Source: Bacteroidia bacterium (GTDB lineage Bacteria > Bacteroidota > Bacteroidia > Bacteroidales > Prolixibacteraceae). From it: DNA of 8,590 nt. The stretch covers positions 1 through 8,590 of the forward strand of contig JANYJT010000071.1 of the NCBI GenBank assembly GCA_025358395.1, written 5' to 3'. How positions within the stretch are numbered: position 1 is the first letter of the stretch; the number at the start of each line of letters is the position of its first letter. Shown here one piece after another: positions 151 to 8,590 of this stretch. The notes below the pieces were generated by a model. That model was not told the DNA's origin and did no database searches. It saw nothing but the letters and a program-made list of their open reading frames with translations. Made by a program: the position numbers and the translations under genes.

Positions 151-176
151 ATCTTGATTAGAGCGTTCTTCACTTT
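151..176 (-). repeat. Core of dispersed composite element, copy A
   Basis: On the minus strand this reads AAAGTGAAGAACGC followed by TCTAATCAAGAT. A second copy lies at 7551-7576 on the plus strand and matches at 23 of 26 positions, with mismatches at core positions 15, 18 and 20. Both copies have GG..AAA heptads on the 5' side (GGCAAAA here, GGATAAA there) and AT..CTC heptads on the 3' side. The shared order of parts argues for descent from one element rather than chance. No such element is known to me. Confidence 0.72.
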
Positions 177-194
177 TGCCTTTTGCCTTTTGCC
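174..194. repeat. Heptanucleotide tandem repeat, 3 copies of TTTTGCC (GGCAAAA on the minus strand)
   Basis: Three perfect 7-bp units begin immediately after the proA stop codon (195-197) on the transcribed strand. This is the upstream arm of the copy A composite element and overlaps the core by three bases. The unit differs from the GGATAAA arm of copy B at two of seven positions. Confidence 0.93.
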
Positions 195-1448
195 TTACCT
201 TCTCACCTGCCCCTCCCCTTCCACAATCCATTTGTAGGTGGTAATCTCCTCCAAAGCCATGGGGCCGCGGGCATGCAATTTTTGAGTACTGATACCAATT
301 TCGGCTCCCAGGCCAAATTGGGCTCCGTCTGTAAAAGCCGTACTGGCATTTGCATAAATAGCAGCAGCATCAACGGTTAGCAAAAATTCATCAAGCGTAT
401 TCCTGTTGGCGGAGATGATCGCCTCACTGTGTTTGGAACCAAAAGTGGCGATGTGTTCAAGCGCCCCGGTCAACGAAGCAACTGTTTTTACAGCCAACTT
501 GTAAGATAAAAACTCTGTGCCGAAAGACTCCTGAGTAGCCCGATGAAGCAAATGGGCCGGATAATTATCAGACAATACCGCGAATGCCTCCGGATCCGCA
601 AATATTTCCACCTGACTGGCAGGCATCAAACTTACAAGAAATGGAAGGTCATGGATACGGCTCTTGTGAATTATCAAACAATCCAAAGAATTACAGACAC
701 TTACCCTCCGCGTTTTGGCATTATGGATTACCTGCTTCCCGATCTCTTTGTCACCATCAGCATCAAAATAAGTATGACAAATACCCGCTCCTGTTTCGAT
801 AACCGGAATTTTTGCATTTTCCCTTACGTACTCGATCAAAGCCTGACTCCCCCTTGGAATAATGAGATCAACAAATCCTCTGGCATTCAGCAAATCCGCA
901 GCTGCTTCCCTGGTCGGAGGCAATAGTAGCAATGAATTTTCATCAATTGACAAGCTGGCCAACACCTTTTTGATGACCGAAACAATGGCCTTATTCGAAT
1001 AATGTGCATCACTGCCACCCTTTAATACAACTGCACTGCCGGACTTGATACACAGGGAAAAGACATCGAAAGTCACATTGGGTCTTGCCTCAAAAATAAT
1101 CCCAATTACACCAAAAGGTACAGTTACCTTCTTAATTTTTAGTCCGTTGGGCAGTACTTCCTTGCTCAAAATTCTCCCTATCGGGGAAGGCAAAGCGGCC
1201 ACATTCCTGATATCATTTGCGATGGCTTCAATTCTTGACCTGCTGAGTTTTAAGCGGTCATACCTGGGATCGGACGAATCCATCAGATCCAGGTCCTTCT
1301 GATTTTCATTTAGAATTTCATCCGTGTGCGCTTCGGTTGCTTCGGCAAGTTTCAGGAGCAAATGATTGACCTGCTCCGCGGATAATTTTGCCAGTTTTCT
1401 GCCGGCATCTAAAACCGGCTTAAAATTATATGCTGGTTCCATAGCCAT
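195..1448 (-). CDS. proA: Glutamate-5-semialdehyde dehydrogenase (gamma-glutamyl phosphate reductase)
   Basis: ProA reduces gamma-glutamyl phosphate with NADPH to glutamate-5-semialdehyde, the second step of proline synthesis. The 417-residue product has the usual family length. Visible landmarks are [14 protein letters not shown] (113-126) and [14 protein letters not shown] (135-148) in the nucleotide-binding domain, [12 protein letters not shown] (about 194-205), and the catalytic cysteine at residue 252 in [14 protein letters not shown]. The C-terminus GEGQVRR is a normal family ending. The start at 1446-1448 shares its A with the TGA of proB (TGATG), which suggests translational coupling; a second ATG two codons in is also possible. 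The stop codon directly abuts a GGCAAAA heptad array. ProA and ProB are known to channel the labile phosphate between them, which fits the adjacent overlapping genes. Confidence 0.97.
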
Positions 1449-2539
1449 CAGATGAGGTATAAATAATCATACTGAATAAAGGGTTTGGACTTCTTGCCAC
1501 CCTTTTCTTCCAAAGTTTCATCCGAAGAAAATGATGCTTTTCCCAATCCCAGTAAATTTCCTTCCTGATCTTTGATCCTCACGATGTCACCTTCCTTGAA
1601 ATATCCCGTAACCGAGGAAATACCTATCATGAGCAGACTAACTGCCTTATCGGAAAGCAAGGCCGACCGGGCTCCCTCGTTGATGACCACTTCACCCCGG
1701 GCAAAATCATCCGAATGCGAAAGCCATTTACGAACTCCGCTTGATTTCTTGGCAGAGGGCAGAAAATGCGTAAATGCCGGCAGGTTTGTTCCATGCAAAA
1801 TATCTGTCAATATATTCTCCTTAAAACCATTGGCAATGAATACTGCAATACCTTGTCCGGCAAGTTTTGCGGCAATGTGATATTTGGTCAGCATTCCGCC
1901 TCTTCCAAAATTCGATTTTTGTGCAGAGATCGAAATCTTATCAACGCTTCTGTTGGGATGGATGGTCCGGATCAGTTCGCTGCCGGGTTGATCCGGGGCA
2001 GCAGTATAAACCCCGTCAACATTTGAAAGGATCACCAGCGCCTCCGCATCCATCATGGAAGCAATCAATCCCGAAAGTTCATCGTTATCCGTAAACATCA
2101 GCTCCGTCACCGAAATAGTATCATTCTCATTAACTACAGGAACGACCTCATTTTCGAGCAGCGTCTTCATGCAGTTGCGCATGTTCAGGTAATGAAGGCG
2201 ATCCCCGAAATTTTCCTTGGTTGTCAGCACTTGTGCTATGGTGACTCCCTGGTCATGAAATAGTTCAGCATATCGATTGATCAGCTTTACCTGCCCGACG
2301 GCCGACCACAACTGCCGACTCGAAACCGGATCCAGTTTTTTTAGTGGCTCAACCTCCGCCCGACCCGCGGCAACAGCGCCTGAAGTGACCAGGGTTACCT
2401 GCATCCCTTCCTTTTTAAGTTGGGTAATCTGTTCAACAATATGCGCCATTCTGGAGACATTGAGCATTCCATCATCCCTGGTGAGCACATTGCTCCCAAC
2501 TTTGACGACAATTTTCTTGTATGACGAAGCAATCCCCAT
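1448..2539 (-). CDS. proB: Glutamate 5-kinase with C-terminal PUA domain
   Basis: ProB phosphorylates glutamate with ATP, the committing and usually proline-inhibited step of proline synthesis. The 363-residue product has two parts. An amino-acid-kinase domain covers about 1-260, with [10 protein letters not shown] (11-20), [10 protein letters not shown] (51-60), NENDTISV (137-144), [16 protein letters not shown] (150-165), VDGVYTA (174-180) and [14 protein letters not shown] (212-225). A PUA domain covers roughly 278-350. Length and layout match the PUA-containing E. coli type. I place the start at the ATG at 2537-2539, giving [15 protein letters not shown]. An in-frame ATG at 2590 would add 17 unrelated residues and overlap the upstream gene. 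The gap to the XRE-cupin stop is 13 bp, and the stop overlaps the proA start. Confidence 0.96.
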
Positions 2540-2552
2540 TGTTACATTTTTA

Positions 2553-3104
2553 TTAAAGCACAACCGCCAAAAACCTCGCGACCCTTCCATTCATCGCCTG
2601 CATACCATGCGGAAGTGACGAATCGAAATAGACTGAGTCACCCGGATTAAGGATGAGCTCATTGTCTCCAATGATCACCTTCATCTGACCTTCGAGCATG
2701 TAATGAAATTCTTGACCGGTGTGTGCGTTGATGGCAATTTCCGGATCCTCTTTTGGCTCAACGATCACGAAATATGGGTCTGCTTTTCGGTTGGCAAAAT
2801 TAGCTGACAATGATTCATAATTGTATGACTGCCGACGCTGAACCACAACGCCCTTTCCTTTCCTGGTAAGGTCAAAGGTGTGAACATGCGGCTGTTCACC
2901 GGTAAGCAGAGTTGTAATATCAAATCCAAAATGTCTGGCCATCCGATGTAATATACTAACCGGAATATCCAATTCGCCACTCTCATATTTCAGGTATTCG
3001 GGTACGGTAATATCGCAAGTCTGGGCCGCCTTTTCGGGGGATATCTCAAGCGATTCGCGCATTCCTTTGAGTCGATCGGCGATCTCAATGATTTGTCGTT
3101 CCAT
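2553..3104 (-). CDS. XRE-family transcriptional regulator with C-terminal cupin domain
   Basis: The 183-residue protein has an N-terminal helix-turn-helix of the XRE/Cro type (about 6-66) and a C-terminal single cupin barrel (about 110-183). Candidate metal or ligand residues are H128, E132 and H134 in HTGQEFHYMLEG, and H166 in the second cupin motif (GDSVYFDSSLPHGM, 155-168). The architecture and length are those of PuuR-like regulators, whose cupin senses a small metabolite (family knowledge). The gene sits between proC and proB, 10 bp and 13 bp from its neighbours, so it is almost certainly cotranscribed with them. I infer that it senses a proline, arginine or polyamine pathway metabolite and controls this or a related operon. 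Target sites and ligand cannot be read from the sequence. There is no signal peptide or membrane segment. Confidence 0.9.
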   Translation of the reverse strand: MERQIIEIADRLKGMRESLEISPEKAAQTCDITVPEYLKYESGELDIPVSILHRMARHFGFDITTLLTGEQPHVHTFDLTRKGKGVVVQRRQSYNYESLSANFANRKADPYFVIVEPKEDPEIAINAHTGQEFHYMLEGQMKVIIGDNELILNPGDSVYFDSSLPHGMQAMNGRVARFLAVVL

Positions 3105-3112
3105 ATTTTTTC

Positions 3113-3145
3113 AGTTAAGAGTTGAGAGTTGAGAGTTGAGAGTTA
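3113..3145. repeat. Heptanucleotide tandem repeat at the proC 3' end (AGTTGAG / CTCAACT)
   Basis: One variant unit AGTTAAG (3113-3119) is followed by three perfect AGTTGAG units (3120-3140) and a partial fourth. On the minus strand the unit is CTCAACT. Most of the array lies inside the proC reading frame and encodes its last residues, and the variant unit supplies the TAA stop. This is the only array here that is mainly coding. Confidence 0.93.
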
Positions 3146-3975
3146 GAAGAAGCGACTGGTCCCTGGAGAGGAAGTTGAGCGTTGTTCAGCTTGTTAAATG
3201 AGACCAGCAATCCACGGATCAATGCTGAGGAAAATCCCTGATGCTCCATTTCGTTCAATCCGGAGATCGTGATTCCTTTGGGAGTAGTCACTTTATCGAT
3301 CTCCTGTTCGGGATGCCTCCCTGTTTGCAGGATAAGCTCTGTCGCACCTTTTACAGTCTGGGCTACAATTTGTTGGGCTACATCCGCTCCAAAACCAATT
3401 TCCACTCCGCCCTGAATGGCTGCCCGGATGAAGCGGAGGGCAAAAGCAATTCCACAGGCACCTAAAACAGTTGCAGCAGCCATCAGCTCCTCGTTGATGA
3501 AAATCACCTTACCCAGCGTTTCAAAAAGATCCCCGACCAATTTCTGAACATCCGGATCACAATCAGGAGCCGCAATAAGCGTCATAGATTCCTGCAAGGC
3601 TACCGCCGTATTTGGCATCACCCTGAAAGTCAGAACGCCTTCAGGTACGTTTTCGTTCAGTTCAGCCAATGATATTCCGGTCATCAGCGAGAGAAGAATT
3701 TGTCCTGGTTTCAAATGCGGTTTCAGTTCCCGAAGCAATTCTATCGCCTGATAAGGTTTCACAGCCAAAATTATAACCTCCCGACCTAAAACACCTTTTG
3801 CATTCTCCTTCCCGATGCATACTCCTTTTGCTTTAAGATCTTCCAGCAAATGCACCCTTCGACGGGTGATGCAGATTTTGGAAGGCACTATTCCTGCTTT
3901 CAGAAAGCCTTCAGCAACTGATCTGCCGAGATTTCCTCCTCCAATAATACCTATATTGATTTGGTTTATTTGCAT
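3115..3975 (-). CDS. proC: Pyrroline-5-carboxylate reductase
   Basis: ProC reduces 1-pyrroline-5-carboxylate to L-proline with NAD(P)H, the last step of the pathway. The N-terminus IGIIGGGNLGRSVAEGF (8-24) is the Rossmann dinucleotide-binding loop. RVMPNTAVALQESMTLIA (118-135) is the central conserved block. The C-terminal helical domain carries the P5CR signature as DKVTTPKGITISGLNEMEHQ (227-246). The PKGIT form in place of PGGT is, as I recall, common in Bacteroidetes. At 286 residues it is longer than the usual 265-270. The extra tail after about residue 262 is low in complexity, and the final residues NSQLSTLNS are encoded by the heptad array at 3113-3145. The tail is probably dispensable. 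The start at 3973-3975 lies 30 bp after argD with only a weak purine stretch upstream. Confidence 0.96.
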   Translation of the reverse strand: MQINQINIGIIGGGNLGRSVAEGFLKAGIVPSKICITRRRVHLLEDLKAKGVCIGKENAKGVLGREVIILAVKPYQAIELLRELKPHLKPGQILLSLMTGISLAELNENVPEGVLTFRVMPNTAVALQESMTLIAAPDCDPDVQKLVGDLFETLGKVIFINEELMAAATVLGACGIAFALRFIRAAIQGGVEIGFGADVAQQIVAQTVKGATELILQTGRHPEQEIDKVTTPKGITISGLNEMEHQGFSSALIRGLLVSFNKLNNAQLPLQGPVASSNSQLSTLNS

Positions 3976-4005
3976 GGCTACTTTTTCTTTGATTGAAAGT
4001 GCAAA

Positions 4006-5136
4006 TTACATATTTTTCGTTACACGGCTTAAGGTTTCCAGGAACCGCGATGCATCACTCTTGGTCAAGGTCAGCGGAGGCAAGATTCTGATCACATGAG
4101 TACCTGTAACTCCTGTAAAAATTTTCTCTTCGAACAAAAGCTTTTTGCGAAGTGTAACCACCGGCTCGTCAAATTCAAGACCGATCATCAGTCCTTTGCC
4201 ACGAACCTCTTTAATCTGTTTGAAGGAGGCCAATTCCTCCAAAAGATATCCTCCGACTGTTGCAGCATTTTCAACCAGCTTTTCCCGCTCCATGATCTCT
4301 AAAACCGCAAGACCGGCAGCACATGCCAGGTAATTGCCACCGAATGTTGTCCCCAGCATCCCGTGCCAGGGTTTTAATTCAGGGGCAATCAATACTCCAC
4401 CTACCGGGAAGCCGTTACCCATTCCTTTGGCTACCGTAATCACATCAGCCTGAATACCTGCATATTGGTGGGCGAAGAATTTTCCGCTACGGCCGTAGCC
4501 GGATTGCACTTCATCCAGAATTAGCAGCGCGCCTTTCTCTTTACACAACCTGCCTGCATTTTGAAGAAATACCGGATCCGGAACCCTGCATCCGCCAACA
4601 CCCTGGATACCTTCGACCAAAACCGCAGCTACCTCACCGGTTGACAAGGCAACTCTCAATGCCTCTGTATCGTTTAGTGGCAAAATAACACGGTCGTGCA
4701 CATCGTTGAGTGGGGCAATAATTTTGGGATTATCTGTCACCGCCACTGCGGCTGAGGTTCGACCATGAAATGACTTATCGAAGGCTACAATCCTCTTTTT
4801 ACCAGTTAGAAACGAAGCCAACTTCAAGGCATTTTCGTTTGCCTCTGCACCGGAATTGCACAAAAACAGATTGTAATCGTCGTAACCTGAAAGTTCTCCC
4901 AGCTTGGTGGCCAACTCTTCCTGCATCGGATTCTGTACCGAATTAGAGTAAAATCCGATTTTATTCAACTGATCAGTGATCCGCTTTATATATTGTGGAT
5001 GTGAATGACCCACTGAGATCACTGCATGACCGCCATAGAGATCAAGATATTCGACTCCATCTTTATCGGTAATTGTACAACCAATAGCCGAAACGGGAGT
5101 CAGGTCGTAAAGGGGATAAACGTCAAAAAGATTCAC
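4006..5136 (-). CDS. argD: Acetylornithine/succinylornithine aminotransferase (class III, PLP-dependent)
   Basis: ArgD transfers an amino group from glutamate to N-acylglutamate semialdehyde, giving N-acylornithine. The 376-residue protein shows LYGGHAVISVGHSHPQY (33-49), the phosphate-cup motif CNSGAEANENALKLA (93-107), the PLP-ring aspartate D208 in LILDEVQSGYGRSG, the Schiff-base lysine K237 in VITVAKGMGNGFPVGG, and GTTFGGNYLACAAGLA (262-277). The start is GTG (5134-5136). There is no ATG between it and an in-frame upstream TAA, and the resulting opening of VNLFDVYPLYDL, read with Met, fits Bacteroidetes homologues that I recall as beginning MKLFDVYPL. The gene follows argC by 64 bp and precedes proC by 30 bp. 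Acetyl or succinyl preference cannot be assigned, and some ArgD enzymes also accept ornithine. Confidence 0.95.
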   Translation of the reverse strand: MNLFDVYPLYDLTPVSAIGCTITDKDGVEYLDLYGGHAVISVGHSHPQYIKRITDQLNKIGFYSNSVQNPMQEELATKLGELSGYDDYNLFLCNSGAEANENALKLASFLTGKKRIVAFDKSFHGRTSAAVAVTDNPKIIAPLNDVHDRVILPLNDTEALRVALSTGEVAAVLVEGIQGVGGCRVPDPVFLQNAGRLCKEKGALLILDEVQSGYGRSGKFFAHQYAGIQADVITVAKGMGNGFPVGGVLIAPELKPWHGMLGTTFGGNYLACAAGLAVLEIMEREKLVENAATVGGYLLEELASFKQIKEVRGKGLMIGLEFDEPVVTLRKKLLFEEKIFTGVTGTHVIRILPPLTLTKSDASRFLETLSRVTKNM

Positions 5137-5200
5137 AATGGTAAAAATTTAGAAGTGAAACTATATGGTATTTTCGATTCTGGAATTCATGATTATTTTT

Positions 5201-6181
5201 TTAAAAAGCTACTGCTTTAAGGTTTAAACCGGCTTTTTCATCGATGCCGAAAAGGATGTTCATGTTCTGCACCGCCTGACCGGAAGCTCCCTTTAAAAGA
5301 TTGTCGATGCAGGAGATAATCATCAGCTGATCACCATGCTTCTCGAGGTAAAGCAGGCATTTATTCGTGTTGACAACTTGCTTCAGATCCGGATTTTCAT
5401 CGGTTATCCAGACAAATGGATGAGACTGATAATATTCGGCAAACAACTTTTTTGCATCGGCCAGAGTTCCCGAAAATCGGGTGTAGGCAGTAGTAAAAAT
5501 GCCTCGTGTATGGTTTCCCCGGACGGGAATAAAATGAACCGAATTTCCAAAATTGGGTTGTGCCTGTTTTAGCGTTTGGCAAATCTCGCCCAGATGCTGG
5601 TGCTCAAATGCCTTGTAAACAGACAAATTGTTGTCCCGCCAGCTAAAATGAGAAGATTTCGTCGGTTCTTGTCCGGCGCCGGTCGACCCGGTAATGGCAT
5701 TCACATGAAGGTCATCAATGATCAGGTCTGCAACCGCCAAAGGCAAAAGCGCCAATTGAATACCAGTGGCAAAACATCCGGGATTGGCTATGTGGGAAGC
5801 AAGCTTTATTGCAGACCTGTTCAACTCCGGTAGCCCATAAACGAAGGCATTACCATCCCTTTTCAAGCGAAAATCGTGACTCAGATCGATAATTTTGACA
5901 TGCTCCGGAAGGTCAATTGTGGCAAGATATTCAATCGATTTGCCATGACCGGAGCATAGAAAAAGCACATCAACCTGACCTAAATCGATGGTGGAAAACT
6001 TCAAATCTGTTTCGCCGATCAGATCCTTGTGGACCGCCGCGATGGGTTTGCCATGGTTGCTGCTGCTTTGAATGTATTTTAAATCAGCATTTGGATGGTA
6101 CAACAGGATACGGATCAGCTCTCCGGCAGTGTAACCGGCACCTCCAACAATTCCGACTCTGATATTATTGCTTAATTCCAT
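5201..6181 (-). CDS. argC: N-acetyl(acyl)-gamma-glutamyl-phosphate reductase
   Basis: ArgC reduces N-acylglutamyl phosphate with NADPH to the N-acylglutamate semialdehyde used by ArgD. The 326-residue length fits the shorter bacterial type. The N-terminus has the dinucleotide-binding loop VGIVGGAGYTAGELIRIL (9-26). The catalytic cysteine is C136 in SHIANPGCFATGIQLALL. A second active-site block is VHFIPVRGNHTRGIFTT (215-231), and STGAGQEPTKSSHFSWRD (166-183) is also conserved in the family. The C-terminus NLLKGASGQAVQNMN is a canonical ArgC ending. The start is the ATG at 6179-6181. Its leader contains a perfect palindrome (6196-6210) and, further up, a polypyrimidine heptad array. ArgC and ProA catalyse analogous reactions on acylated and free glutamyl phosphate. 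Confidence 0.96.
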   Translation of the reverse strand: MELSNNIRVGIVGGAGYTAGELIRILLYHPNADLKYIQSSSNHGKPIAAVHKDLIGETDLKFSTIDLGQVDVLFLCSGHGKSIEYLATIDLPEHVKIIDLSHDFRLKRDGNAFVYGLPELNRSAIKLASHIANPGCFATGIQLALLPLAVADLIIDDLHVNAITGSTGAGQEPTKSSHFSWRDNNLSVYKAFEHQHLGEICQTLKQAQPNFGNSVHFIPVRGNHTRGIFTTAYTRFSGTLADAKKLFAEYYQSHPFVWITDENPDLKQVVNTNKCLLYLEKHGDQLMIISCIDNLLKGASGQAVQNMNILFGIDEKAGLNLKAVAF

Positions 6182-6195
6182 ATGTTGTATTCAAT

Positions 6196-6210
6196 TTTGA
6201 AATTTTCAAA
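6196..6210. promoter_or_regulatory. Palindrome in argC leader, TTTGAAA-T-TTTCAAA
   Basis: Two perfect 7-bp arms are separated by one base, 14 bp upstream of the argC start. A related 16-bp palindrome, GTTTGA-CATT-TCAAAC, lies at 8445-8460 between argR and GNAT. The symmetry and leader location fit a protein-binding operator, possibly for ArgR or the XRE-cupin protein, but I know no matching consensus. The arms are AT-rich, so chance is possible. Confidence 0.3.
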
Positions 6211-6241
6211 TGACCGGCATGTATTGAATTTCCAGAAACGC

Positions 6242-6304
6242 TATTCCCTCCTCACTCTTCTCTCTTCCCTCTTCCCTCCTCACTCTTCCCTCTTCACTCT
6301 TCAC
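6242..6304. repeat. Polypyrimidine heptanucleotide array, about 9 units of TCTTC(C/A)C
   Basis: Units run in strict 7-bp register from 6242 to 6304: one degenerate unit (TATTCCC), then eight of TCTTCCC, TCTTCAC, TCCTCAC or TCTTCTC type. On the transcribed strand it is purine-only apart from scattered T, with units such as GTGAAGA and GGGAAGA. The argG stop codon (TCA on plus, 6301-6303) falls inside the last unit. The GTGAAGA unit equals the first seven bases after AAA in the dispersed 26-bp core. Confidence 0.9.
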
Positions 6305-7488
6305 TTATTCACAGAGAAAAAGATCTTAAGCTGATTACTCAGAATCTTTGTAAATCCTTTTGCATCGTCTGCACTCCAGCCTTTGTTCATCTCGCCATAT
6401 GATCCGAAGTCGCTGTTCATCAGATCATGCTCCGACTCTATTCCGACCATTTGAAACGTATATGGCAAAAGCTTTATGATTACTTTTCCGGTTACGTTTT
6501 CCTGACTGCTTTCGAGGAATTTTTCCATGTCACGCATCACGGGTTCCAGGTATTGGGCCTCGTGCAGGAACATTCCGTACCAGTTGCCCAGCTGCTCTTT
6601 CCAATATTGCTGCCATTTGGTGAGGGTATGTTTTTCGAGCAAATGATGGGCCTTAATAATTAACATCGGAGCAGCGGCTTCAAATCCAACGCGGCCTTTG
6701 ATACCAATAATTGTGTCTCCCACATGGGTGTCGCGGCCAATTGCCCAGGCAGATCCAATCTTTTCGACTTCCCGGATCACATCCACAGGATTGTGGTGAG
6801 TCTTTCCATTAACTGCTTTCAGTTGACCTTTTAAAAACTCGAGCGTAAGAATTTCTTCTCCCTCCCTGGTCAAATGAGTTGGATATGCACTCTCGGGCAA
6901 TGTCTTGTTGCTCGTCAGGGTCTCCTTGCCACCTATACTGGTTCCCCATAATCCCTGGTTGACCGAATAGGCCATTTTTTCGAAATTGTCTTTTACCCCG
7001 TTGTTGCGCAGATACTCGATTTCAGCATCCCGGGTAAGTTCCAGGTCGCGGGTAGGCGTCAGGATTTTTATCTCAGGAGCCAGGACTTCAAAAGCGAGGT
7101 CAAACCTTATTTGATCATTTCCTGCACCCGTGCTGCCGTGTGCAACGTATTGCGCACCAATTTTTTTGGCATAATCGATCACTGCCAATGCCTGAAAGAT
7201 TCGCTCCGAGCTGACCGAAATTGGATAAGTATTGTTTCTCAGCACGTTGCCATAAACCATGTAACGTATTCCCTTGCTGTAATAATCGGCGGTAATGTCT
7301 AATGTTTTATGCGATTTCACTCCCAGCGAATAAGCCTTCTTTTCAATCACAGCCAATTCTTCCTGCGAGAATCCTCCTGTATTGGCCACAGCCGAATAAA
7401 CATCCAACCCCTTTTCTTTGGCAAGATAAATGGCGCAGAATGAGGTATCCAAACCTCCGCTGAACGCCAGAACAACTTTTTCTTTCAT
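6301..7488 (-). CDS. argG: Argininosuccinate synthase
   Basis: ArgG condenses citrulline and aspartate with ATP to argininosuccinate, the penultimate step of arginine synthesis. The 395-residue length is normal for the family. The N-terminus carries the ATP-pyrophosphatase P-loop AFSGGLDTSF (8-17). HGSTGAGNDQIRFDL (117-131) is the conserved nucleotide/citrulline-binding block, and NNTYPISVSSER (85-96) lies in the substrate region. The later segment SAYPTHLTREGEE and the C-terminal domain are typical of the family. The substrate must be deacylated citrulline, so a deacylase acting after ArgF' is needed and is not in this window. The start ATG is at 7486-7488. The TGA stop lies in the last unit of a heptad array, and the final residues SVNK look unaffected. 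The gene lies 119 bp before argC and 214 bp after the GNAT gene. Confidence 0.97.
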   Translation of the reverse strand: MKEKVVLAFSGGLDTSFCAIYLAKEKGLDVYSAVANTGGFSQEELAVIEKKAYSLGVKSHKTLDITADYYSKGIRYMVYGNVLRNNTYPISVSSERIFQALAVIDYAKKIGAQYVAHGSTGAGNDQIRFDLAFEVLAPEIKILTPTRDLELTRDAEIEYLRNNGVKDNFEKMAYSVNQGLWGTSIGGKETLTSNKTLPESAYPTHLTREGEEILTLEFLKGQLKAVNGKTHHNPVDVIREVEKIGSAWAIGRDTHVGDTIIGIKGRVGFEAAAPMLIIKAHHLLEKHTLTKWQQYWKEQLGNWYGMFLHEAQYLEPVMRDMEKFLESSQENVTGKVIIKLLPYTFQMVGIESEHDLMNSDFGSYGEMNKGWSADDAKGFTKILSNQLKIFFSVNK

Positions 7489-7533
7489 TTTTCTTAATTT
7501 ATTTTAAGATCAAAATTTATGCACTATATATTT

Positions 7534-7548
7534 TTAAAAGGATAAAGG
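7534..7548. repeat. Left arm of 15-bp perfect inverted repeat (TTAAAAGGATAAAGG)
   Basis: This sequence is the exact reverse complement of 7686-7700. The two arms bracket most of the GNAT-argG gap, including the core copy B and the GTCTCAT array. The arm overlaps two tandem GGATAAA heptads at 7540-7553. It could act as the end of an element or allow a long hairpin in the leader RNA. Confidence 0.8.
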
Positions 7549-7550
7549 AT

Positions 7551-7576
7551 AAAGTGAAGAACGCACTGAGCAAGAT
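7551..7576 (+). repeat. Core of dispersed composite element, copy B
   Basis: On the plus strand this begins AAAGTGAAGAACGC and ends CAAGAT, matching copy A (151-176, minus strand) at 23 of 26 positions. GGATAAA heptads precede it and AT..CTC heptads follow it, as in copy A. This copy is antisense to the genes, while copy A is in the same sense as the genes. Confidence 0.72.
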
Positions 7577-7605
7577 TTCAACCAATCCCATAACTCATAT
7601 CTCCT

Positions 7606-7654
7606 GTCTCATGTCTCATGTCTCATGTCTCATGTCTCATGTCTCATGTCTCAT
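7606..7654. repeat. Heptanucleotide tandem repeat, 7 perfect copies of GTCTCAT
   Basis: Seven identical 7-bp units lie in the middle of the GNAT-argG gap. Degenerate units flank them on both sides (ATAACTCATATCTCC at 7590-7604, and ATATCTCC with TATATCTCAACTC to about 7678). On the minus strand the unit is ATGAGAC. Perfect identity across seven copies suggests recent expansion, so copy number probably varies between strains. Confidence 0.95.
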
Positions 7655-7685
7655 ATCTCCTGACTTATATCTCAACTCCACTGCC

Positions 7686-7715
7686 CCTTTATCCTTTTAA
7701 CTTTATCCTTTAGCC
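7686..7715. repeat. TTTATCC heptads and right arm of inverted repeat, overlapping the GNAT stop
   Basis: On the minus strand this reads as units GGCTAAA, GGATAAA, GTTAAAA, GGATAAA. Positions 7686-7700 form the right arm of the 15-bp inverted repeat with 7534-7548. The TAA stop of the GNAT gene (7703-7705) and its last codons lie within these units. Confidence 0.82.
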
Positions 7716-8347
7716 TTATTTTTCTTTTCAAGCCACTCCTTGAACATCTCAAAAGGCATGTTCATTTTGCTTTTTTCCTTTTGCCAGGCCGGATCATACA
7801 ACATTCCGGTACACAGACACTTGGAGTGTTTCATTCGCAACAGAATATCATAATTCACACAACTCTGGCATCCCTTCCAGAATTGCTCATCATCGGTGAG
7901 TTCTGAAAATGTGACCGGTCTGTATCCAAGCTCTGAATTTATTTTCATGACGGCCAAACCGGTGGTCAAACCAAACAATTTAGCGTTGGGGAATTTCTTC
8001 CTCGATATCTCAAATGCCTTGTGTTTGATGCGTCGGGCAAGTCCGAAACCTCTGTAATCCCAATGGACAATCAAACCTGAATTGGCCACATATTTTTCAT
8101 CACTCCATGATTCGATGTAACAAAATCCGGCAAATTTTTCTCCATCCAGGGCGATAATCGCTTTCCCCTGACTAATCTTGTCAGCTATATACTCATGGGT
8201 ACGTCTTGCAATACCGGTTCCACGTTCAAGTGAAGCCTTTTCGATGGTATCATTAATTTCGTCCACATATTTCAGATGAGACTCATTGGCCAGCATCACT
8301 GTGATCTCCGGCTTCTTGGGCTCTATATTTTTTTTTCTGAATATCAT
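7703..8347 (-). CDS. GNAT-family acyltransferase, probable N-acylglutamate synthase
   Basis: The 214-residue protein has a GNAT core (about 14-147). Its acyl-CoA pyrophosphate loop is R99-GFGLA in HWDYRGFGLARRIKH, after the strand ANSGLIVHW. The later strand NAKLFGLTTGLAVMKINSELGYRPV is the usual GNAT end. The C-terminal extension (about 150-214) holds four cysteines, C160, C163, C177 and C179, arranged CxxC-x13-CxC. Position between argR and argG, and the absence of any other glutamate acylase here, point to N-acetyl- or N-succinylglutamate synthesis. I recall that fitness work in Bacteroides thetaiotaomicron assigned such a role to the orthologous gene, but I cannot verify that here. A wider GNAT role remains possible. 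The last codons and stop lie in TTTATCC heptads. No clear promoter or Shine-Dalgarno motif is visible upstream. Confidence 0.8.
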   Translation of the reverse strand: MIFRKKNIEPKKPEITVMLANESHLKYVDEINDTIEKASLERGTGIARRTHEYIADKISQGKAIIALDGEKFAGFCYIESWSDEKYVANSGLIVHWDYRGFGLARRIKHKAFEISRKKFPNAKLFGLTTGLAVMKINSELGYRPVTFSELTDDEQFWKGCQSCVNYDILLRMKHSKCLCTGMLYDPAWQKEKSKMNMPFEMFKEWLEKKNKAKG

Positions 8348-8406
8348 TTGTTTACGCTCTTGTGATTGTAAAATTGTTAAAATAACTCTTCCTTAATCGA
8401 CTAATT

Positions 8407-8453
8407 GTTTGAAGGGTTTATGGGGTTTAAAAATTGTTTATGGTGTTTGACAT
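8407..8453. repeat. Degenerate 9-bp array, GTTTNNNNN units
   Basis: Five units begin GTTT: GTTTGAAGG, GTTTATGGG, an 11-base GTTTAAAAATT, GTTTATGGT and GTTTGACAT. They are in the opposite orientation to the perfect ATTTCAAAC array that follows, and meet it at a 16-bp palindrome (8445-8460). Confidence 0.6.
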
Positions 8454-8514
8454 TTCAAACATTTCAAACATTTCAAACATTTCAAACATTTCAAACATTT
8501 CAAACATTTCAAAC
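8452..8514. repeat. Nonanucleotide tandem repeat, 7 perfect copies of ATTTCAAAC
   Basis: Seven identical 9-bp units (GTTTGAAAT on the transcribed strand) end in a partial ATT that overlaps the argR stop codon at 8516-8518. Each unit is the reverse complement of a GTTTGAAAT-type unit like those in the degenerate array at 8407-8453. The gap can therefore fold back on itself. Perfect identity suggests recent expansion or conversion. Confidence 0.95.
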
Positions 8515-8515
8515 A

Positions 8516-8590
8516 TTAAATTCTGTTCTCGAGTTTTGGCATAATACCGATCAGCGTCTTTGTGACATCACTCCGACCAATACCTTCGCG
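8516..8590 (-). CDS. argR: Arginine repressor ArgR, C-terminal fragment cut by window edge
   Basis: The last 24 codons and the stop are present; the gene enters from the right edge. The peptide is REGIGRSDVTKTLIGIMPKL followed by ENRI. This fits the final helix of the ArgR oligomerisation domain, where a conserved GDDT strand (outside the window) is followed by a short loop and a closing helix of about this length. The assignment rests on this weak similarity together with position, because argR precedes the GNAT-argG-argC-argD block in many Bacteroidetes. ArgR would sense arginine and control the cluster. The TAA stop overlaps the end of the nonanucleotide array. Confidence 0.6.
   Translation of the reverse strand, partial: REGIGRSDVTKTLIGIMPKLENRI

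Follow-up and report, generated by a model that had tools for sequence, protein, structure and literature searches.

We have analysed two small repeats in an 8,590-nucleotide stretch of DNA (hereafter the window) from a Bacteroidia bacterium of the family Prolixibacteraceae (GenBank assembly GCA_025358395.1, contig JANYJT010000071.1). These repeats probably belong to a family of hairpin elements in which the longer elements encode a four-helix-bundle protein (S23/IVP, known from 23S rRNA intervening sequences) and the shorter ones, these two included, have no gene. The family is dispersed, has inverted arms built of short tandem units and is sited on stop codons. Its arms are linked to IVP genes in two phyla, and one and the same slot between two host genes can hold a gene-bearing or a gene-less state.

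The window copies share a 26-bp core, which reads AAAGTGAAGAACGCTCTAATCAAGAT in copy 1 (151-176, minus strand) and AAAGTGAAGAACGCACTGAGCAAGAT in copy 2 (7551-7576, plus strand). An earlier note on this DNA, made from its letters alone, had described the pair as identical at 23 of 26 positions and bracketed by heptad arrays, and both observations hold. The cores differ at 3 of 26 positions, the pattern common to both is matched with up to three mismatches by 0 of 200 dinucleotide shuffles, and arrays are present around each (GGCAAAA x3.4, TGAGTTA x3.1, AAAGGAT x2.6 and CTCATGT type x11.6). The same note proposed a small, non-autonomous dispersed repeat with heptad arrays for ends. In essence this stands, as regards dispersal and arms, while the core itself turns out to be an interior module of one subfamily. 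Its placing of the AT..CTC heptads at an element end has to be given up: in copy 2 they are interior, and beyond them, at 7687-7717, lies a second, inverted AAAGGAT-type array that had been overlooked (seen by eye; Tandem Repeats Finder rows 7686-7719). The ends of the elements are inverted (AAAGGAT)n and (ATCCTTT)n arms, and copies 1 and 2 are separate elements at two gene ends, not both ends of one 7.4-kb unit.

Copy 2 (about 7537-7717) follows the plan arm, core, heptads, arm. The left (AAAGGAT)n arm (7537-7554, plus strand) and the core are followed by 11.6 interior units of the CTCATGT type (7594-7674, plus) and by the right arm (7687-7717, minus), which is the inverse of the left and supplies the stop codon of a GNAT gene (TAA, 7703-7705, minus). 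In the minus-strand transcript of 7530-7725 the arms pair, with a minimum free energy of -46.2 kcal/mol (z -3.47) that 1 of 200 shuffles equals. Copy 1 consists of one arm, the core and heptads; its inverted partner array is absent from the window. The left arm of GGCAAAA heptads (173-196, minus) comes directly after the stop of proA, which ends at 195, and the three ATAACTC units on the other side (120-141, minus) end at the next start codon (ATG, 116-118, minus). A hairpin formed by copy 1 on its own was rejected, with 195 of 200 shuffles folding at least as well. Neither copy carries a gene. We also dropped the core as a conserved small open reading frame (GTG AAG AAC GCN ...), which by eye runs for about eight codons and then soon meets a stop in copy 1 and heptads in copy 2.

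For comparison we use the nearest genomes, found via the ArgG protein of the window and labelled G for genome and L for locus. They are G001 (L012, ArgG 96% identical to that of the window), G002 (L013, 93%), G003 (L014, 89%), G004 (L015, 85%), G005 (L066, 85%), G006 (L016, 83%) and G007, Prolixibacter denitrificans (L017, 81%). The core of copy 1 is kept in L012 and degenerate in L013. In the slot behind proA, L012 has a longer run of GGATAAA heptads than the window, and L013 has TAATTCATCATTCATCATTC in place of the ATAACTC heptads.

The core is dispersed. The earlier note had suggested looking for further copies, and at up to three mismatches G001 holds six (reversed-pattern control, 0), one of them the orthologue of window copy 1. 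The expected flanking heptads accompany most of these: by eye, GG..AAA lies directly to the left in five of the six and AT..CTC to the right in four, and the sixth copy has octads of AAATTTTC type. Among eight other genomes, seven have no match and G007 has one, with no arrays around it. A slightly looser exact pattern with 21 fixed bases has 0 matches in a collection of 84,980 species, so that, within the range of this search, close copies are limited to this lineage. Viral contigs gave 11 candidate matches of the core pattern.

The arm pattern AAAGGATAAAGGATAAAG, allowing one mismatch, has 100 matches in G001 against 1 for the control, with 6 in G002, 8 in G004 and 0 in each of G003, G005, G006 and G007. 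We examined 60 stretches around such matches (46 from G001, 8 from G002 and 6 from G004). Many have inverted arms, in full form AAGGATAAAGGATAAAGTTAAAAGGATAAAGT ... ACTTTATCCTTTTAACTTTATCCTTTATCCTT, and an interior that in most cases falls well short of 200 bp. Among the remainder are one-armed copies, and some contigs stop in or just behind a copy. Often the core adjoins one arm and CGGAGTCC the other, with RTCTCAT or ATAACTC heptads between them, and many relatives have a GGAGTCC motif in the interior. The element on contig C40 of G002 (L185) bridges the gap between contigs C289 and C149 of G001, from which it follows that G001 contigs break at these repeats. By eye, the interiors of L156 and L185 contain a terminator-like hairpin made of the core motif and its complement.

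Between the GGATAAA arms of a longer copy in G001, L180 (= L243), lies a gene whose product is a PF05635/TIGR02436 four-helix bundle; like the protein of a second G001 locus, L221, this product matches TIGR02436. The motif AAAGT-N-GGACTC[CT] adjoins an arm in 15 loci, 13 in G001 and 2 in G002, a count that omits two GGACTC matches not adjoining an arm (L157 at 2045 and L161 at 1633); some of the loci with the arm-side motif are cut by contig ends. L180 is among the 15, and its GGATAAA arms together with a subterminal GGACTCC motif found at 14 other loci place the IVP carrier in the same family.

It is improbable that these are ordinary miniature inverted-repeat transposable elements (MITEs), moved in trans by a DDE transposase or a Y1 transposase of the RAYT (REP-associated tyrosine transposase) type, with the heptad arms as terminal inverted repeats. 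In form the likeness is good, as the elements are short, gene-less and intergenic, have many copies and terminal inverted repeats (copy 1 being one-armed) and are amplified in particular lineages. The arm sequence varies from locus to locus, however, unlike ends that are bound by one transposase, and a target duplication was not seen. One longer copy, L180, shares its ends with the short elements and encodes an IVP protein. In a survey confined to Y1_Tnp transposases, none of 19 Y1_Tnp loci from seven genomes has tandem arms and 7 have one weak arm-pattern match; Y1_Tnp/RAYT was accordingly rejected as the mobiliser.

Other IVP genes also lie between inverted arrays. Genomes G001 to G007 have 8, 3, 2, 2, 6, 0 and 5 IVP genes, and a survey of 60 genomes from the order found one or more in 42, against 0 of 14 in controls. 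We assembled 55 IVP loci, namely all 26 of G001 to G007 and 29 more, one listed locus per genome; 14 were dropped for incomplete flanks, leaving 41. When the upstream flank is paired with the downstream flank, 38 of the 41 reach the 95th percentile (score 13) of 320 mismatched pairs and 25 exceed the 99th (18), the highest control being 30. The units differ from locus to locus (GGGAGACT, TAATGTGC, ATGAATT, AAAATGTG, AGTACTTAG and others), and within one element the unit of one arm matches that of the other. At 31 of the 41 loci one or both flanks have an array of 7-9-bp period no more than 300 bp from the gene, and at 12 both do, against 3 of 41 for other periods; in the background of single 300-bp windows the figures are 71 of 4285 and 29 of 4285. 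With the three loci that fail the arm test left out, the arms read inward are 35% A, 9% C, 32% G and 25% T (2808 nt) and stops occur in a larger number of frames on inward than on outward reading (2.11 and 1.35; 1.73 after shuffling; 72 of 76 arms). Upstream of 32 of the 41 IVP genes, at a distance of 15-300 bp, lies the end of a codirectional frame with 100 codons or more; 11 have a convergent frame downstream.

Some further observations concern the genes themselves. A solved structure, 2gsc, exists among the S23/IVP relatives, and an IVP query found no relative in viral contigs. Loci L238 and L242 of G001 have similar upstream genes, each then followed by an IVP gene, one intact and one with internal stops, and IVP genes stand in close tandem in some genomes (G036:C67:66536-67383, G013:C85:3279-4802). 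A dependence on reverse transcriptase was rejected, as 25 of the 42 genomes with IVP genes have such a gene and so do 8 of the 18 without.

Comparison of single slots shows the elements in their different states. Between argC and argD, G001 has arms and an IVP gene, G002 has a similar arm pair without the gene (arms by eye) and the window has no array. L238 is an IVP element in G001, with no array at this place in G002, and L247 of G001 has TAATGTGC arms with a truncated IVP gene that is intact in G002 (L228). Between argG and argC the window has 123 bp with an array, against 4 bp and no array in L012. Sites without an element are thus found in relatives, with flanks too diverged for the ends or a target-site duplication to be read. 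Other slots stay filled while the units change: L139 and L267 are one convergent slot that carries GGATAAA in one species and AGATATA in the other (arms by eye), and the proA-argF slot has three ATAACTC units in the window and L012 and three related but different units in L013. Further slots filled in both G001 and G002 are L157/L189 and L146/L192.

The elements are sited on stop codons. From G001 we took 43 GGATAAA arms flanked on either side by 330 bp or more and looked for a sense open reading frame of at least 100 codons with its stop no more than 30 bp from the outer end of the arm. Such a stop is present in 33 of the 43 arms and in 1 of 43 for the mirror control. Distances from stop to arm gather between -7 and +3, with further clusters at +9, +16 and +23, where the stop is a TAA inside the arm. 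Without regard to the sequence of the unit, 40 sampled contig pieces of G001 and G002 (531 kb) contain 52 arrays of 7-9-bp periodicity. In 25 of these a sense stop lies no more than 30 bp from the 5' end of the strand poor in C (mirror, 4), and 8 are situated within long frames. The periods in these two genomes are mainly 7, 8 and 9 and multiples, with a few of 10, 12, 15, 17 and 19, a preference not seen in two IVP-less genomes. For genome annotation, an array on a stop codon may be the end of an element that alters the C-terminus of a host protein.

The same siting bears on whether the arrays are binding sites of a translational or transcriptional regulator, as proposed for the TAACTGA repeats of Beggiatoaceae. 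Heptads do lie near gene boundaries, and copy 1 ends at a start codon. That said, the units differ widely by locus and the arms in G001 sit at stop codons, and we consider this explanation very improbable.

We next consider how arrays are distributed over genomes with and without IVP genes. A census of six genomes, which excludes N-runs (as does the larger one below) and omits contigs that hold or were chosen for IVP genes (C11 and C123 of G002, C587 of G001 and 11 contigs of G061), gave 231 intergenic 7-9-bp arrays per Mb in G061 (20 IVP genes; 78 kb), 84 in G001 (8), 37 in G062 (7) and 63 in G002 (3), whose contigs were sampled mostly from earlier match lists. The IVP-less genomes G006 and G016 have 17 and 5. 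The number of arrays at stop codons is 6 of 18, 7 of 12, 3 of 11 and 9 of 21 in the first four and 0 of 5 and 0 of 2 in the last two. In these six genomes the difference between presence and absence of IVP genes is clear, and the order is not monotonic. A wider census took 50 of 64 ArgG loci, each of at least 10 kb. For genomes with 0, 1-2, 3-6 and 7 or more IVP genes there are 1.5, 2.7, 8.8 and 11.4 intergenic arrays per 100 kb (Spearman 0.43, p 0.002) and, in the same order, 0, 5, 10 and 9 arrays at stop codons.

These numbers also bear on the possibility that the arrays are made by the host. Slippage would expand 7-9-bp units behind stop codons, the resulting hairpins would be favoured as terminators or mRNA stabilisers, and IVP genes would just land in or near them. 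Several results are in keeping with this: the arrays of IVP-bearing genomes have mainly periods of 7, 8 and 9 and multiples; arrays are placed on the sense strand at 3' ends; slots remain filled while their units change; and array numbers show a modest relation to the number of IVP genes that does not rise monotonically. It has also been suggested that slippage may favour heptads (PMC4679880). Against this, arrays at stop codons number 25 of 62 in the four IVP-bearing genomes and 0 of 7 in the two IVP-less ones, with IVP-chosen contigs omitted, and 205 kb from 11 IVP-less genomes contain 0 stop-adjacent arrays. In addition, dozens of loci in one genome share long arms and interior modules, which looks like copying and not like parallel slippage. 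We regard a host origin of the arrays as unlikely.

The tie between IVP genes and arrays is found in a second phylum. With the IVP protein of L221 as the query we obtained 36 plasmid records, the listed names of which are cyanobacterial (five names are unlisted). Among the best 15 of these 36 matches, a 7-9-bp array lies within 300 bp of the IVP gene in 12, on both sides in 7, and arrays of other periods in 0 of 15. The background, in half-overlapping windows of three of these plasmids, is 32 of 996, and 4 of the 32 lie beside a further IVP gene. This gene, which was not preselected (L408, 9743-10099), stands between TAATTCG and CGAATTA arrays, and the gene preceding it ends within the first array. 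In 6 of the 15 plasmid loci (L396, L401 and L404-L407) an integrase or tyrosine recombinase gene neighbours the S23/IVP gene.

We hypothesize that the hairpin element is a selfish unit that spreads to sites immediately 3' of stop codons. It would do little harm there, since its arms can supply stop codons to the genes they cut into. The transcribed arms would fold into a long hairpin, which could be excised from the mRNA much as RNase III acts on the S23-coding insert of rRNA, and the IVP protein would be the likeliest trans-acting helper. Loss of the IVP gene would leave short derivatives such as the window copies. Slippage, together with copying of one arm from the other, may keep the arms matched while their units change. 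The long members were found solely via their IVP genes, so other cargo is possible.

A number of points weigh against this interpretation. No movement was seen, and no target duplication is readable at this divergence. No catalytic site is known in IVP proteins. Reverse transcriptase is dispensable, as 17 of the 42 genomes with IVP genes yielded none. Two species share several occupied slots, so some positions are old. Many arrays, copy 1 included, are one-armed. The arm test failed at 3 of 41 IVP loci (L232, L284 and L312), and only 6 of the 15 cyanobacterial loci pass the test for an arm's own partner, since GGGGAGCA-type units are common to these loci and control scores run high (95th percentile 23.5). 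The genomes used are mostly draft metagenome-assembled genomes. As to dose, G062 with 7 IVP genes has fewer arrays per Mb than G002 with 3 (37 against 63). Without L012, the locus that led here, the top class of the wider census falls to 8.0 and the correlation to 0.41 (p 0.004). The density of arrays next to stops gives a rho of 0.31 (p 0.03), or 0.28 (p 0.054) without L012, and stop siting at the ArgG loci is 24 against 10 for the mirror. Control periods correlate too (rho 0.33, p 0.018; 0, 2, 4 and 6 arrays by class, 12 in total), and all of these density correlations ignore phylogeny. The relation of dose to IVP number is thereby weakened and is modest. Our confidence in the family of IVP-carrying hairpin elements is unchanged, because the flank evidence carries it.

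The closest known systems are rRNA intervening sequences. In the 23S insert of Coxiella burnetii an S23/IVP open reading frame lies within inverted repeats that form a 28-bp stem cut by RNase III; it has been called selfish, of unclear origin, and what spreads such sequences into 23S rRNA is described as an open question (PMC4990558). In bacteria of the candidate phyla radiation (CPR), IVP genes occupy several insertion sites of the 16S and 23S rRNA genes (PMC11270868). The elements described here resemble these in the S23/IVP gene of the long members and in inverted repeats that pair into a stem (38 of 41 IVP loci, and the fold of copy 2). They differ in lying between protein genes at stop codons, in having arms of tandem 7-9-bp arrays that vary by locus and in the abundance of gene-less derivatives, the window copies among them.

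The short tandemly repeated repetitive (STRR) sequences of cyanobacteria are heptanucleotide repeats, 7-bp arrays in filamentous species that have been described as stand-alone. Intergenic tandem arrays of 7-bp units are also what we find here, and filamentous cyanobacteria are the group in which our IVP genes lie between 7-9-bp arrays. We know of no report of STRR sequences pairing into inverted arms around S23 genes. The TAACTGA direct repeats form intergenic heptamer arrays in Beggiatoaceae, cyanobacteria and some Bacteroidetes (MacGregor 2015, PMC4679880). They differ in having one unit and, in the main species, a position mostly upstream of start codons, and the consulted sections of that paper make no link to S23. 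The BrickBuilt MITE of Porphyromonas gingivalis is likewise small, dispersed and located between genes, and combines inverted ends with tandem repeats; its units are 23 bp long, its inverted ends are small and the abstract names no S23 gene (PMC4596501).

Short inverted modules behind genes are also known as repetitive extragenic palindromic (REP) sequences and bacterial interspersed mosaic elements (BIMEs), with RAYT transposases. In contrast to these, our elements lack a single palindromic unit and Y1 transposase loci lack tandem arms. The Avd protein of diversity-generating retroelements resembles PF05635 in sequence and structure (PMC10053308). Avd is the partner of a reverse transcriptase, whereas the IVP genes here show no tie to reverse transcriptase genes. 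To our knowledge, S23/IVP proteins have no known function. IVP genes also occur in cas loci (PMC3936711). We found no published tie of S23/IVP genes to inverted short tandem arrays in a search at the level of titles and abstracts, with the subscription literature mostly outside it. The terms 'tandem repeat' and 'inverted repeat' are absent from PMC8700078 and PMC11270868, and 'inverted repeat' is absent from PMC10053308 and PMC3936711.

More tentatively, S23/IVP genes may define an unrecognised class of mobile elements, in which the gene lies between inverted 7-9-bp arrays, inserts codirectionally behind stop codons and renews its arms. The 23S rRNA inserts would then be members that landed in rRNA, and arms or gene-less derivatives would make up the heptad repeats of cyanobacteria and Bacteroidota, and perhaps those of Beggiatoaceae. 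We consider this possible and short of probable; if true, the common 7-9-bp step would reflect the copying machinery itself. The source of the intergenic 7-bp arrays of cyanobacteria, Bacteroidetes and giant sulfur bacteria is not agreed (PMC4679880), and related S23-carrying elements offer a testable source for intergenic short tandem repeats of several bacterial groups. The tie of IVP genes to arrays in two distant phyla would merge this puzzle with that of the rRNA inserts into one testable question, namely whether the S23 protein acts in moving hairpin elements or in maintaining them.

Finally, we describe the setting of the two copies. The window is an 8.6-kb piece of Bacteroidota DNA with minus-strand proline and arginine genes, i.e. 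proA, proB, an XRE-cupin gene, proC, argD, argC, argG and the GNAT gene. Both copies sit between protein genes and not inside an rRNA gene, and Rfam at gathering scores has 0 matches in the window. Three related arrays occur elsewhere in it, all on the minus strand. A one-armed array of AACTCTC heptads (3113-3144) encodes the last residues of ProC (...QLSTLNS) and is present in L012 and absent in L013. A one-armed array of GAGTGAA/GAGGGAA heptads (6244-6302) follows the stop codon of argG. The third (8402-8517) is a related element with 9-bp units at 8450-8517 and, by eye, a degenerate inverted partner at 8402-8449. Its 9-bp array begins at the stop of an open frame on the minus strand that continues beyond the window, and the unit is found again in the G001 and G002 samples.

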